Source of the DNA: a virus
Strand: one strand, 5' to 3'
Virus record (IMG/VR): IMGVR_UViG_3300041411_000090
Location: 1-47,000 of that record
DNA: 47,000 nt
The position numbers and the translations under genes were made by a program. The notes under the pieces were generated by a model. That model was not told the DNA's origin. It ran no database searches and saw only the letters and a program-made list of their open reading frames with translations. Below are positions 10,231-46,047 of the stretch, piece by piece. Each line of letters starts with the position of its first letter. The stretch's first letter is position 1.

Positions 10231-10244
10231 GTTTTCCAGAGAAC
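10231..10244. repeat. 14-bp palindrome, copy 2
   Basis: GTTTTCCAGAGAAC, a two-mismatch copy of GTTCTCCGGAGAAC, starting 3 bp after the stop of 9719-10228 and followed by AGTT as in copy 4. Confidence 0.65.
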
Positions 10245-10272
10245 AGTTAAATTGAGAGTTTGGAGGGGTGTG

Positions 10273-10527
10273 ATGGATAGCAGGCAGCAGTTTGAAGAGT
10301 GGGCGAGCGATAACGGTAAATGGCCTAAAGCCGTAGAGCGAAACGGTGAAGGCTATAAATTCATGAAGACGCATACTGACTGGCTAGCTTGGAAGGCAGC
10401 ACGAGAATCAGTTGTTGTAATCCTACCGGCAAGGGTAGAAAATCTTCTTGACAAGCAATATGGAGAATTTATGGATTCTGAATGTGTTGAACACGCAATC
10501 AACTCTGCGGGAATTCGCACCAAATGA
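10273..10527 (+). CDS. SRxxFExW-type small protein, 84 aa (paralogue 1)
   Basis: MDSRQQFEEWASDNGKW and TDWLAWKAARESVV form a pattern repeated in the proteins at 10861 and 12926: an N-terminal FExW helix and a W-xAWxAAR helix. The start is fixed by the strong GGAGGGG site 5 nt upstream. The family is common in phages of pseudomonads and enterobacteria; function unknown. Confidence 0.8.
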   Translation: MDSRQQFEEWASDNGKWPKAVERNGEGYKFMKTHTDWLAWKAARESVVVILPARVENLLDKQYGEFMDSECVEHAINSAGIRTK

Positions 10528-10697
10528 CCCTAACCGAACTACTCCCCCTCCTAATCGCCATCTACGAAAAACACGGCGACCTTCCACTCGCTACAGGCTT
10601 CGACGACCATAAGCCTATTGTGGGGGCGCTGGTTAGTGAGTTTGAGAAGACGAGCGAGCTTGGTAAGAAGGGCGAGCGTTTCGTGGACTTTTACTAA
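10524..10697 (+). CDS. Small hypothetical protein, 57 aa
   Basis: MTLTELLPLLIAIYEKHGDL, then FDDHKPIVGALVSEFE and RFVDFY. Helical, acidic. ATGA overlap with the upstream gene and TAATG overlap with the next, so it fits tightly into the operon. Function unknown. Confidence 0.75.
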   Translation: MTLTELLPLLIAIYEKHGDLPLATGFDDHKPIVGALVSEFEKTSELGKKGERFVDFY

Positions 10698-10864
10698 TGG
10701 ACGAATACGAGAGAGAAATAGCAAAAGACATCATGGCAGAGCTTCTTAAGCCAATCATTGAACAGATGGTAAAGATGGCTGTTGAATATGTTGTGCAAGA
10801 GGCGTACAAACAAGACAAAGGACGCCATCAGCCGTTCTGGACAAAGCAATGGAGGAAGTCATGA
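10697..10864 (+). CDS. Small helical hypothetical protein, 55 aa
   Basis: MDEYEREIAKDIMAELLKPI with an amphipathic helix to about residue 38 and a basic tail (RHQPFWTKQWRKS). Overlaps its neighbours by TAATG and ATGA, which supports it despite its size. Confidence 0.65.
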   Translation: MDEYEREIAKDIMAELLKPIIEQMVKMAVEYVVQEAYKQDKGRHQPFWTKQWRKS

Positions 10865-11148
10865 GCAGCAGAGAAGAGTTTGAGGCTTGGGCCGAGCCTT
10901 ACCACCGAGAGGCTGGGAATTGGTACGAAAGAGACGGGGGAATGTTTGAGCTTTTCGTTGACGGATCATACCGAGTGAGATGGCTAGAAAGCGACTTTGT
11001 TGCATGGCAAGCCTCCCGCGCTCACGAATCCGACCTGCTCGCAGCGCTAAAAGCCATAACCAACTCCGGCCCCGACGCAATACCGATCAATGAGGCGTTT
11101 GAGATGGCGCATAGGGCGATTGAGCGGGTTAATGGAGGGAAGGTATGA
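10861..11148 (+). CDS. SRxxFExW-type small protein, 95 aa (paralogue 2)
   Basis: MSSREEFEAWAEPYHREAG, then RVRWLESDFVAWQASRAHE, then a helical C-terminus with ALKAITNSGPDAI. Same architecture as the proteins at 10273 and 12926. The second ATG of the frame is chosen because GGAGG precedes it and it overlaps the upstream stop (ATGA). Function unknown. Confidence 0.82.
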   Translation: MSSREEFEAWAEPYHREAGNWYERDGGMFELFVDGSYRVRWLESDFVAWQASRAHESDLLAALKAITNSGPDAIPINEAFEMAHRAIERVNGGKV

Positions 11149-11471
11149 GTCCGTATACGAAAGGGCCGTGGGATTACGCCACGCGAACAGAGAATGACAT
11201 CCTGATCAGCGTAAGGATTAACGACGCTAGCCATGCGACTGTCTGCACTGTTCACGGATCGACTAGCCCGATGAATGATCAGTACGTTGGAGCTTCTAAG
11301 CTGACGGCTAACGTTAGACTGATTTGTTCCGCTCCAGACTTGCTTGATGCGTTAAAGCTGTTGCTTGCTGAAGTTAATGGAAATGATCTAAGCCAAGAAG
11401 AGTCGGATCGGCTGGATCACGCTATAGAAATGGCACAATCTGCAATAGCAAAAGCTACAACAATTCAATAA
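11145..11471 (+). CDS. Conserved phage hypothetical, 108 aa
   Basis: YTKGPWDYATR near the N-terminus and ANVRLICSAPDLLDALKLLL in the middle form the TPGPW...ANARLIAAAPELLEAL pattern that I know from many phage proteins of unknown function. ATGA-coupled to the upstream gene; the first run of accessory genes ends here. Confidence 0.85.
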   Translation: MSPYTKGPWDYATRTENDILISVRINDASHATVCTVHGSTSPMNDQYVGASKLTANVRLICSAPDLLDALKLLLAEVNGNDLSQEESDRLDHAIEMAQSAIAKATTIQ

Positions 11472-11531
11472 CTTAATAGTTAAACCTAATCGATAAGTCG
11501 CCTTTCATAGTAATACTATTTGGAGTGGGAT

Positions 11532-11840
11532 ATGAACAACATTCGCGCAAAGTTTGAAGAGATTTGGCCGGTGCCTGAAGGGGTGTATTGGTATGGAGAA
11601 TATAGTACGCACCTATATTCAATGCTGGTTGCAGCAAGGGAGCACAACGCCCGCCTCGACACCTTCACCCGCTGCCAGGAGATGATGGCTATTCCAGAAA
11701 TCACTAAGGCGAACGTTCAGTTCGCGCTTAACTGTCAGATGGAAGATCCGAGCGACGACGAAGAGATTGGATTCTGCGAGGGTGTTAGCTGGTGCCTTGC
11801 ATTCATCAAACAAGAAATAGCGAAGAGGAATCGCAAATGA
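11532..11840 (+). CDS. Hypothetical protein, 102 aa
   Basis: MNNIRAKFEEIWPVPEGVYW resembles the FExW opening of the SRxxFExW family, but the rest differs (EHNARLDTFTRCQEMM, IGFCEGVSWCLAFIKQEI). GGAG upstream favours the second ATG. Function unknown. Confidence 0.78.
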   Translation: MNNIRAKFEEIWPVPEGVYWYGEYSTHLYSMLVAAREHNARLDTFTRCQEMMAIPEITKANVQFALNCQMEDPSDDEEIGFCEGVSWCLAFIKQEIAKRNRK

Positions 11841-12097
11841 ACGCACTACCCGGACAGATGGAATTGGCGACAGTGATTGATCATAAGCCGAGCAAGACTA
11901 GCTTCGGAGAACATGTTGCTTGCTCGGAGGATGGCGTTCTGCACTGGATGAGCGGTCGCAAATTCCAAAACTGCGAGCTATACACGTCGCCTGATACCGG
12001 TGTGCGCCTAGCTAAGATGCTGGCGCAATACGACGACTCGCCCTCATCGCAATTGTGGGGCGACATTCAGCGGTTGGCGCGGGAAATACTGAAATGA
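11837..12097 (+). CDS. Hypothetical protein, 86 aa
   Basis: MNALPGQMELATVIDHKP, LHWMSGRKFQNCELYTSPD and a helical end. The start is set by the ATGA overlap with the upstream stop. No family recognised. Confidence 0.75.
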   Translation: MNALPGQMELATVIDHKPSKTSFGEHVACSEDGVLHWMSGRKFQNCELYTSPDTGVRLAKMLAQYDDSPSSQLWGDIQRLAREILK

Positions 12098-12282
12098 GCA
12101 AAGAAACAGAATTGAAGGCATGCCCGTTTTGTGGTTGTGCGCCAGGTATCACAGCTCCGTTCGGAACGTTATGTGTGAGCTGCCATAACCCGAAATGCCT
12201 GATGAAGCCTAGCACTTGGCTTAATTGCAGTGATTCGACCGATCTTAGGGTTGTGGCTAAGCACTGGAACACTCGCAAATAA
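12094..12282 (+). CDS. Lar-like zinc-ribbon protein, 62 aa
   Basis: MSKETELKACPFCGCAPGI, then CVSCHNPKC and AKHWNTRK is the restriction-alleviation Lar pattern with CxxC pairs. The start is set by the ATGA overlap. Second Lar-like gene of the genome (the other is at 3214). It ends the first accessory transcript, before a terminator. Confidence 0.85.
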   Translation: MSKETELKACPFCGCAPGITAPFGTLCVSCHNPKCLMKPSTWLNCSDSTDLRVVAKHWNTRK

Positions 12283-12299
12283 CCCTTGCAAAACCACCA

Positions 12300-12327
12300 A
12301 AAGGCTCCTAATGTGAGCCTTTCTTTT
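12300..12327 (+). terminator. Intrinsic terminator
   Basis: AAAGGCTC/GAGCCTTT 8-bp stem with 7-nt loop, then CTTTTT. It closes the gene run 9719-12282. Confidence 0.8.
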
Positions 12328-12352
12328 TGGATTATTTTTGGAGGGGTTACAC

Positions 12353-12514
12353 ATGAGCAGCGAACGACCAGAGAATCACATGCTTACGATCAAGGGTAAA
12401 CACTTCTATTGCGACTGTGGCTGTAATGTCTTCACACGTCCATTCAAGGACCAGCCGAATCGATACAAGTGCAACTCTTGTGACGCAACGTACACCACGG
12501 AGCCAGCCAAATGA
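12353..12514 (+). CDS. Small zinc-finger-like protein, 53 aa
   Basis: HFYCDCGCNVF and RYKCNSCDATY supply two Cys pairs typical of a single zinc ribbon. GGAGGGG lies 8 nt before the ATG, and the stop overlaps the next start (ATGA). Function unknown. Confidence 0.75.
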   Translation: MSSERPENHMLTIKGKHFYCDCGCNVFTRPFKDQPNRYKCNSCDATYTTEPAK

Positions 12515-12852
12515 CCATCTCAACCACAACCCTAAAAAACGCAGCCCGAGCGATTGAGTGTGACCTGTGGACTGACCCTGACGGCGCGAACTACCTGGCT
12601 AAGGATGGGGCTATTCTTCGGCGGTGGGAGCCTGCTACGAATGACACGGATGCATTTAGACTAGCGGCCAACCTGCGCATGCAGACAGCGACAACCCTCT
12701 ACGCAGCCTTTGCAGATTCGGAAGACGAAGAAATTATGGTAAGAATTGCATTTGAGGCTGATGGCCGCGATAGATTAGATCCGTTCACAGCAATGCGTCA
12801 TGCCATCACTGTCTGCGCGTCAAAAATTGGAGAATCCATCAAATGCCAATAA
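12511..12852 (+). CDS. Hypothetical protein, 113 aa
   Basis: Contains LRRWEPATNDTDAFRLAANLRM, a pattern (NDxDAxRLAxxL) seen in small phage proteins of unknown function, flanked by helical segments. ATGA-coupled to the zinc-finger gene. Confidence 0.8.
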   Translation: MTISTTTLKNAARAIECDLWTDPDGANYLAKDGAILRRWEPATNDTDAFRLAANLRMQTATTLYAAFADSEDEEIMVRIAFEADGRDRLDPFTAMRHAITVCASKIGESIKCQ

Positions 12853-12929
12853 TCGCTTGCACATGGTTCGCGTGGACCTATATTCTGACTGCCGTTAAGG
12901 TGAAAATTAGTTATTGGAGGGGTGTATGA
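12843..12929 (+). CDS. Possible 28-aa membrane peptide
   Basis: MPIIACTWFAWTYILTAVKV is hydrophobic and could span a membrane; a short basic tail follows. It overlaps the upstream stop by 10 bp and the next start by ATGA. The tail codons also form the ribosome site of the next gene, so this may be only a leader or chance frame. Confidence 0.35.
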   Translation: MPIIACTWFAWTYILTAVKVKISYWRGV

Positions 12930-13258
12930 GTATTCAGAAAGACTTCGATAAATGGTTGCGTAGTCAGCCGCACGTTCTAAACATTGGATTCAACAAGGCA
13001 ACAGGTAGGTATCTGCTTGCCGAAGATGAAACAGCTTGGCAGGCGTGGCAAGCCGCCGTAGCGGCAAACAGAGAAGACAAGGAAATTCTCATAAAGGACG
13101 CCAGTCGGTATGCATGGTTGAGAGACAACGATTTCCTGCATAACTGGGTAAATCTACATGTATGTGATCAGCACAGGTACGCAGAGCTGACAGATGCTGC
13201 GATTGATCGAGCCATGGGAATCGACTCGCGACTAAACGATTCTCCGGAGAACCCTTAA
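12926..13258 (+). CDS. SRxxFExW-type small protein, 110 aa (paralogue 3)
   Basis: MSIQKDFDKWLRSQPHVLN and DETAWQAWQAAVAANREDKE repeat the design of the proteins at 10273 and 10861. The C-terminal ASRYAWLRDNDF...DAAIDRAMGI is also common in small phage proteins. GGAGGGG decides the start. The last codons contain palindrome copy 3. Confidence 0.82.
   Translation: MSIQKDFDKWLRSQPHVLNIGFNKATGRYLLAEDETAWQAWQAAVAANREDKEILIKDASRYAWLRDNDFLHNWVNLHVCDQHRYAELTDAAIDRAMGIDSRLNDSPENP
13239..13252. repeat. 14-bp palindrome, copy 3
   Basis: ATTCTCCGGAGAAC, one outer mismatch, encoding the SPEN residues just before the stop of 12926-13258. Confidence 0.7.
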
Positions 13259-17684: not shown

Positions 17685-17903
17685 ATGACCACAATCAACG
17701 ACCTAGACCAAATCAACACAATGGCGATGATGACCATGTGCGAGCTTGGGTATGCGCGGTATGAGCGGTTTCGTGCTGGGCTTAAGATGGATGATGAGGC
17801 TTGCGAGAAGCTGCGGCAGTTCGTGCATTCGAATGCTGATCGCGAGCATGAACTGGAATTGCGAATTAAATGTGCGCCGATGTACAAACCTATGGCATAC
17901 TAG
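17685..17903 (+). CDS. Hypothetical protein, 72 aa
   Basis: Helical, Met-rich start (INTMAMMTMCELGYARYERF) and an acidic helical end. It is the last gene of the accessory block. Its final codons contain the candidate promoter of the small RNA that follows. Confidence 0.72.
   Translation: MTTINDLDQINTMAMMTMCELGYARYERFRAGLKMDDEACEKLRQFVHSNADREHELELRIKCAPMYKPMAY
17893..17901 (+). promoter_or_regulatory. Extended -10 before small RNA 1
   Basis: TGG-CATACT inside the end of the preceding gene. A start about 6 nt downstream would begin the transcript almost exactly at the first stem of the RNA. Confidence 0.4.
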
Positions 17904-17905
17904 CC

Positions 17906-17977
17906 GCAAGCGATATCCCCCTCCGTCGCTTGCTGCACCTTTATACGCACCGTGAACCGTCCGGTGCGTATTTTTTT
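17906..17977 (+). ncRNA. Candidate small RNA 1 with C-rich anti-SD loop
   Basis: A perfect 8-bp stem, GCAAGCGA/TCGCTTGC (17906-17913, 17926-17933), displays a 12-nt loop containing CCCCCTCC. A short linker follows, then a strong terminator hairpin. The loop is complementary to GGAGGGG, the ribosome site used by the genes at 10273, 12353 and 12926. The layout (promoter, C-rich loop, terminator) resembles bacterial sRNAs that cover ribosome sites. Everything beyond the sequence and base pairing is inference. Confidence 0.45.
17943..17977 (+). terminator. Strong intrinsic terminator
   Basis: 10-bp perfect stem ATACGCACCG/CGGTGCGTAT with 9-nt loop and seven T. It ends the long accessory block and the candidate small RNA. 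Confidence 0.9.
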
Positions 17978-18035: not shown

Positions 18036-18044
18036 TGGTATCAT
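18036..18044 (+). promoter_or_regulatory. Extended -10 before small RNA 2
   Basis: TGG-TATCAT within TTGTGGTATCAT, nearly identical to the early rightward promoter at 5714-5722. No open frame of reasonable length follows, only a noncoding stretch ended by a terminator. Confidence 0.45.
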
Positions 18045-18050
18045 TCTCGC

Positions 18051-18179
18051 TCCTGTCGCAGTACTCAGGAAACCCCGGCGAGATAGAGTACGGATTGACT
18101 CGGCGTAGGGTGAGACGCAGGTGATGTAGCTCTTGAAGCACTGATGTACTAGCCCAGCCTTAAAGAAGCTGGGCTTTTT
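18051..18179 (+). ncRNA. Candidate small RNA 2, about 130 nt
   Basis: Between an extended -10 and a strong terminator there is no convincing reading frame. The segment contains GTACTC/GAGTAC (18061-18066, 18086-18091), and TGATGTA twice around 18122 and 18142. It could be a regulatory RNA, the packaging recognition region ahead of the terminase genes, or both. The sequence alone cannot decide. Confidence 0.35.
18151..18179 (+). terminator. Intrinsic terminator before the holin gene
   Basis: AGCCCAGC/GCTGGGCT 8-bp stem, 9-nt loop, then TTTTT. Confidence 0.85.
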
Positions 18180-45600: not shown

Positions 45601-46047
45601 ATGAAAACTTCTCAGGCCGGTATCGACCTAATCCACAGCTTTGAGTCGTTGCGGTTGAAGGCTTATCCGGATCCTGGCAGCAAGGATGGTAAGCCATACA
45701 CTGTGGGCTGGGGAAGCACAGGTGCAGATATCGGACCAGGCACAGTCTGGACAAGAGAACAGGCAGACGCTCGTTTCGCTAAAGACCTGGCTCGCTTCGA
45801 AGTCGGCGTATCCAAGGCTGTCGGCATTGACCTTGAGCAGCACCAGTTCGACGCGCTGGTTTCGTTCGCCTACAACGTCGGCCTTGGCAATTTCCTGTCG
45901 TCTACCTTGCTCAAGATGCTGAATGATGGCTACGTTAAGAACGCCGGCCTTCAGTTGCTGCGCTGGGATAAGAATGACGGGAAGGTCATGCCTGGCCTGA
46001 CTCGTCGCCGCAAGGCAGAGCTGAAACTATTCTCCGGAGAACACTAA
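45601..46047 (+). CDS. Endolysin, T4-type lysozyme (GH24)
   Basis: 148 aa with the catalytic set Glu15 (HSFESLRLKAYPD), Asp24 and Thr34 (PYTVGWGST), and the fold marker FDALVSFAYNVGLGNFLSST then LLKML, ending GLTRRRKAELKLF. It cleaves the glycan strands of peptidoglycan. No signal sequence, so it depends on the holin at 18269. GAGGTG lies upstream. Its last codons contain palindrome copy 5. Confidence 0.96.
   Translation: MKTSQAGIDLIHSFESLRLKAYPDPGSKDGKPYTVGWGSTGADIGPGTVWTREQADARFAKDLARFEVGVSKAVGIDLEQHQFDALVSFAYNVGLGNFLSSTLLKMLNDGYVKNAGLQLLRWDKNDGKVMPGLTRRRKAELKLFSGEH
46029..46042. repeat. 14-bp palindrome, copy 5
   Basis: ATTCTCCGGAGAAC, identical to copy 3, encoding the SGE residues at the end of the endolysin, 5 bp before the Rz start. 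Confidence 0.7.

Follow-up and report, generated by a model that had tools for sequence, protein, structure and literature searches.

The window analysed here (the whole 47,000-nt stretch of DNA, from an IMG/VR phage record) carries a candidate small RNA (sRNA) that would act in trans to block translation of the phage's own accessory cassettes, a reading to which we give a probability of about 0.55. Phage hotspots swap small accessory genes, and how the timing and dose of a newcomer are controlled is largely open. If the reading is true, a shared leader read by a single phage sRNA would be a simple answer to both. What can be seen directly by comparing sequences is a hairpin whose stem covaries around a conserved loop, a terminator, and shared leaders behind which genes are swapped.

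The candidate sRNA, of about 72 nt, occupies positions 17906-17977 and is composed of hairpin 1, a linker and an intrinsic terminator; these parts, the ORF that precedes them and the three predicted target sites all lie on the plus strand. Its predicted promoter is an extended -10 (TGG-CATACT, 17893-17901), read from the sequence and presumed to function as such, upstream of which no recognisable -35 box was found. In the minimum free energy (MFE) fold, hairpin 1 (17906-17933) pairs 17906-17914 with 17925-17933 around the loop ATCCCCCTCC (17915-17924), in which the anti-Shine-Dalgarno core CCCCTCC, complement of GGAGGGG, stands at 17918-17924. The alignments place a single-stranded linker, TGCACCTTT, at 17934-17942; CACCTT is frequent there in relatives, yet the linker is not invariant, with CACTTT, CAACTTT and GTCTTT as variants. 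The terminator (17943-17977) folds into a 10-bp stem with arms ATACGCACCG (17943-17952) and CGGTGCGTAT (17962-17971), a 9-nt loop TGAACCGTC (17953-17961) and a run of seven T residues (17971-17977). The original prediction had described an extended -10, then a perfect 8-bp hairpin and a strong terminator in about 72 nt; both the reading of the sequence and the MFE fold agree with this order and size, and the eight Watson-Crick pairs of the hairpin hold as well (GCAAGCGA/TCGCTTGC, 17906-17913/17926-17933), although one closing U-G pair extends the stem to 9 bp. The MFE of the 82-nt stretch is -33.3 kcal/mol, compared with -13.3 ± 2.5 kcal/mol for its shuffles (n=200; z -7.9).

The last codons and the stop of a 72-aa ORF (17685-17903), which lies directly upstream and gave no Pfam or PHROG match, overlap the sRNA promoter. 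A consensus promoter and terminator scanner listed neither the promoter nor the terminator of the sRNA, because it requires a -35 box, which is missing here, and limits terminator loops to 8 nt, where this one has 9. With a promoter-like start in the sequence and an intrinsic terminator in the fold, the element was scored as a short free-standing unit whose transcription is itself predicted, and we consider it very probable that the sRNA exists as a real RNA.

Comparison with relatives, whose loci were gathered through terminase and holin searches, supports the predicted fold. Across 32 distinct sequences, hairpin 1 is built from many unrelated stems (for example CAAGC/GCTTG, CAGCG/CGCTG, ATCTC/GAGAT and ATTGC/GCAAT), and its pairing is kept: 90% of cells were paired over 7 positions and 20 distinct arm pairs, as opposed to 49% (s.d. 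5, maximum 74%) when arms were shuffled between sequences. This count took each predicted loop as an anchor and registered the arms outward from it, a procedure that leans towards structure and for which the shuffle control was kept in the same register; it replaced a MAFFT alignment, in which unequal stem lengths had put hairpin 1 out of register. Covariation extends to the terminator stem, of which the 12 distinct forms in the unbiased set described below are 99% paired against 74.5% ± 4.6% after shuffling, and the terminator loop TGAACCGTC is near-constant, with TGTTCCGTC, TGTACCGTC and TGAACTGTC as variants. Many pairings of hairpin 1 type with terminator type occur among the relatives, as if the two were swapped independently. 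The extended -10 is mostly kept as TGG-CATAAT or TGC-AATAAT or, with a looser TGn, as GTGTACACT/GTGTACAAT, and the codons that overlap it differ.

Since part of the first set had been fetched with a pattern containing CCCCTCC, the test was repeated in an unbiased rescan on loci picked only by terminator loop and T-run. In this set, CCCCTCC or CCACCTCC stands upstream in 34 of 35 loci and the remaining locus has CCCCCTCA; the C-rich run is unpaired within a closed apical loop in all 27 distinct sequences. The original prediction had proposed searching relatives for covariation in the stem and had named an unconserved loop on a freely varying stem as the pattern that would speak against it. The opposite pattern was found, with a stem that changes in step and a C-rich loop that stays.

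The distribution of the element is narrow. A C-rich-loop hairpin follows the homologue of the 72-aa ORF in 27 of 27 loci, 26 of them recovered by a loose pattern and the last (L091) having CCCCCCTCC and a divergent linker. Both the ORF and the sRNA are absent from loci whose terminase identity is 79% or lower, and the sRNA family therefore marks one phage clade. Among cultured phages, Pseudomonas phage KLEP17-4 has the nearest terminase (73%), and Blastn against such phages, with the whole region or with the sRNA alone, returned nothing meaningful. Six matches to unrelated bacteria and archaea came from a scan of genome contigs; by our own estimate chance would yield about as many, and we set them aside.

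Insertions were observed around the sRNA. Six loci (L005, L008, L017, L083, L127 and L133) have, between the -10 and hairpin 1, an optional extra hairpin module of about 45-70 nt; it is of several types, and UCC-rich sequence (AUCCUC or AUCCAC, for example) is common in its loop. In two others (L006 and L015), a gene resembling HNH homing endonucleases is found between the 72-aa ORF and the sRNA, immediately before the latter, and a -10-like sequence (GGTGTACACT) is present at its 3′ end.

The predicted targets in the window are three genes preceded by GGAGGGG, and together they hold the top three positions among 75 window genes in predicted duplex energy with the sRNA loop. These are target C (Shine-Dalgarno sequence, SD, at 12916-12922; gene 12926-13258; leader AAAATTAGTTATTGGAGGGGTGTATGAG; rank 1), target A (SD at 10262-10268, an exact complement of the loop; gene 10273-10527; leader TTTTCCAGAGAACAGTTAAATTGAGAGTTTGGAGGGGTGTGATG; rank 2) and target B (SD at 12340-12346; gene 12353-12514; leader TTGGATTATTTTTGGAGGGGTTACACATG; rank 3). 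Their duplex energies lie between -16.1 and -16.7 kcal/mol, where the median of the 75 genes is -7.8 kcal/mol, and the sRNA loop is predicted to pair with them more stably than the ribosomal anti-SD does, the difference being 1.8 to 5.4 kcal/mol; mRNA structure is ignored in both calculations. That GGAGGGG precedes the genes starting at 10273, 12353 and 12926 had been claimed from the letters of the window; the motif indeed begins at 10262, 12340 and 12916, just before those ATGs, and the three genes turn out to occupy three recurrent cassette slots, with TTGGAGGGG common to nearly all relatives. It should be kept in mind that the pairing core between loop and SD is only 7 bp, and that GGAGGGG includes the ordinary SD GGAGG, so that part of the match to the loop is expected. 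A second contact, between CACCUU of the linker and AAGGUG of leader C, was considered and dropped, since the linker is variable and AAGACG is found in three leaders. The only loop variant examined, with loop CCACCTCC in the contig of L088, showed no compensatory change between loop and SD; its GGAGGGG leaders are kept.

Counted without regard to position, GGAGGGG is ordinary in the window (6 observed, 3.4 expected); its enrichment shows in how often it stands at ribosome sites, counted when 2-10 nt before an ATG, and in its recurrence among relatives. Fourteen RNA-bearing phages have 51 such sites (3.6 each), whereas ten RNA-less relatives have 8 (0.8 each); likewise, 62% of all genomic GGAGGGG stands at ribosome sites in the former and 24% in the latter. 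Only in the RNA-bearing phages does it top all 16 GGAGGNN ribosome sites (51, the next having 29). When distinct leader contexts are counted instead, the excess is modest (14 contexts, the next 12), which weakens the enrichment at whole-genome scale, and the case therefore rests on the recurrent slots.

The bulk of the ribosome-site signal comes from three recurrent leaders, gagagttTGGAGGGGtgtgATG, ttatttttGGAGGGGttATG and tagttatTGGAGGGGtgtATG, behind which small unrelated genes swap and TTGGAGGGG is mostly kept. Leader A was found in 9 genomes with 5 gene families behind it, leader B in 4 genomes with 4 families and leader C in 12 genomes with 8 unrelated families. Among 57 conserved 16-nt leaders, these three are the intergenic ones with the greatest gene exchange; the other high-exchange leaders inspected apparently lie inside the end of an upstream ORF. 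The three are otherwise unlike one another. GGAGGGG is retained in nearly all copies of slots A and C and in most copies of slot B, being lost in some of the latter. A sigma70-like promoter stands just upstream of leaders B and C, and of leader A in several phages. Nevertheless, conservation of the leaders reaches well beyond the SD, and it may therefore reflect recombination rather than pairing. Moreover, as the RNA-bearing phages form one clade, the three shared slots may represent only three events.

Within the window, the three slots fall in 10252-13258, where they form three hotspots of small-gene exchange behind a near-constant leader; the proteins encoded in them could be anti-defence genes. 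A palindrome, TTCTCCGGAGAA, was also observed shortly before start codons at 13240-13251 and 46030-46041, with a degenerate copy at 10232-10243, and is present in relatives as well. It might serve as an operator or as a site of exchange.

In the mechanism that we propose, the sRNA would start just downstream of the extended -10, where the early region ends, and would stop at its own terminator; we infer that it is transcribed as a discrete RNA and that it is made around the early/late boundary. Hairpin 1 would expose CCCCUCC, which in the cell would pair with GGAGGGG, the SD of the same phage's accessory cassettes, and this pairing would hide the ribosome site and reduce translation of whichever gene occupies the cassette, repression being the expected direction of the effect. 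Hfq may be used through the U-tract. Given that the shared leader carries the target, any new gene placed behind it would fall under the same control. Perhaps, then, one sRNA and one standard leader make up a regulatory socket, with TTGGAGGGG as an address label and the CCCCUCC-loop RNA silencing the gene that is plugged in, so that newcomers would need no regulation of their own, since the sRNA would switch off any of them. We put forward this broader formulation tentatively and at somewhat less than even odds. The conservation of the terminator loop is left unexplained by the cassette-repression model.

Bacterial RNAs that work through a C-rich loop offer the closest comparison. In mycobacteria, the C-rich loop of B11 (also 6C) pairs with G tracts adjoining ribosome sites and thereby blocks translation (PMC12395582). 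Both B11 and the candidate are short RNAs with a C-rich apical loop, but B11 is encoded on the chromosome, has host genes as its targets and works through its terminator loop, whereas the phage-borne sRNA carries the loop on a separate 5′ hairpin and finds its matching sites in the phage's own exchangeable cassettes. The c4 antisense RNA of phages P1 and P7 blocks translation through loops that pair around a ribosome site (PMC12197685). Like c4, the candidate is a phage RNA with a loop complementary to a ribosome site, its action being predicted; c4 controls one gene, the antirepressor, while the loop described here matches many unrelated genes by means of a shared leader.

The same plan, a hairpin with a CCUCC-containing loop followed by a terminator, is seen in the anti-hemB RNA (RF02837, Burkholderia RNA 7), and this model scores at the sRNA in some relatives with 20-26 bits (best 26.2). 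The gathering score of 49.5 was reached by no relative and the sRNA of the window was unmatched; weak matches to RF02837 were also found in 11 of 14 unrelated control genomes. Membership in this family was thus rejected, the scores being far below the gathering threshold and weak matches being common in controls. A search with Rfam 15 families, including c4, gave 0 matches at gathering score in the window and 0 in 8 relatives; the sub-threshold matches in the window lie on the terminator of the next RNA and not on the sRNA. With an exposed, conserved C-run and complementary G-rich ribosome sites in its candidate targets, the putative sRNA fits the C-rich-loop anti-SD type, and to our knowledge it would be the first phage member of that type, with strong covariation and no Rfam family. 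Literature searches among open papers found no phage example of the type, which does not disprove that one exists.

The position of the locus also invites readings in which no target is needed. As the element lies directly after the last early ORF, it could serve only to end transcription of the early operon, the extra hairpin playing no part in regulation. A second covarying hairpin and fixed loop sequences would then be unneeded, the extended -10 mostly persists even behind different upstream genes, and the conservation of the loop already contradicts this explanation, which we regard as the least probable of all. The lambda 6S RNA, from the pR'-tR' leader, is a short terminated transcript at the phage early/late boundary, and our element could similarly be a cis-acting leader of the late genes, read through once an antiterminator appears. 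Its locus lies between the early region and holin/terminase, promoter and terminator come in the right order, a second promoter/terminator unit is next, and, as predicted, the transcript would be a short terminated unit at the same boundary as that of lambda. However, it differs in its two conserved apical loops in covarying stems, which such a leader does not require; relatives have insertions around it, namely extra 5′ modules, the HNH gene and further genes, and a scan of neighbouring proteins recognised no Q-like or other antiterminator. We find a late leader quite improbable.

Other explanations start from the loop itself. It includes CCUCC, which is also the ribosomal anti-SD core, and any GGAGG would be a pairing partner; the RNA might thus be a general SD blocker directed mainly against host mRNAs, for shut-off or remodelling, with the match to phage cassettes incidental or secondary, much as the bacterial B11 controls several host genes (PMC12395582). 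We hold this to be unlikely, given that GGAGGGG ribosome sites cluster in three cassette slots of RNA-bearing phages and not in RNA-less relatives. Less likely again is a decoy that would capture either a protein or a G-rich sRNA of the host through the C-rich loop, the near-constant terminator loop, or both. Phage sponge RNAs such as AgvB are known (PMC12197685), conserved loops in covarying stems suit protein binding equally well, and the terminator loop UGAACCGUC is conserved with no enrichment of its complements in the window; yet a decoy leaves the enrichment of GGAGGGG ribosome sites in the same phages unexplained, and repression of the phage's own cassettes is the reading that we prefer.

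A second non-coding unit follows at about 18036-18179, bounded by an extended -10 (TGGTATCAT, 18036-18044) and a terminator (18151-18179), and none of the Rfam families reaches its gathering score there. Between the promoter-like start and the terminator lie structured modules that differ in arrangement among relatives, as if shuffled (L004-L008, L013, L084, L095 and others). One of these, a 72-nt module at 18051-18122 of the window with 10 other variants, looks pseudoknotted; judged by eye, its pairs are an outer ACCTG/CAGGT, GTACTC/GAGTAC changing to GCATGC/GCATGC, ACCC/GGGT changing to ACCT/AGGT, and GAG/CTC. Another, ATCCGGCGACAATGCCAGCGCAGGACCTGAAATCCTGTTAGCTTCCGGAT, absent from the window, has an outer stem of ATCCGG/CCGGAT or ATCCAG/CTGGAT and was seen in 13 variants (L005, L014, L084, L090 and others). 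A module resembling the abiF antitoxin RNA (RF03085), also absent from the window, scored 20-28 bits, under the cut-off of 37, in 9 of 21 records and in 0 of 14 control genomes; its sites include L005:817-860 and others in G005, G006, G008, G009, G010, G012, G025, G027 and G029. The conserved core CCAAGCCU..GCUCAAAUCGG is intact in the better matches, and in several cases the module comes last in the second non-coding unit; it may be a decoy antitoxin RNA against host AbiF/Abi_2 systems.
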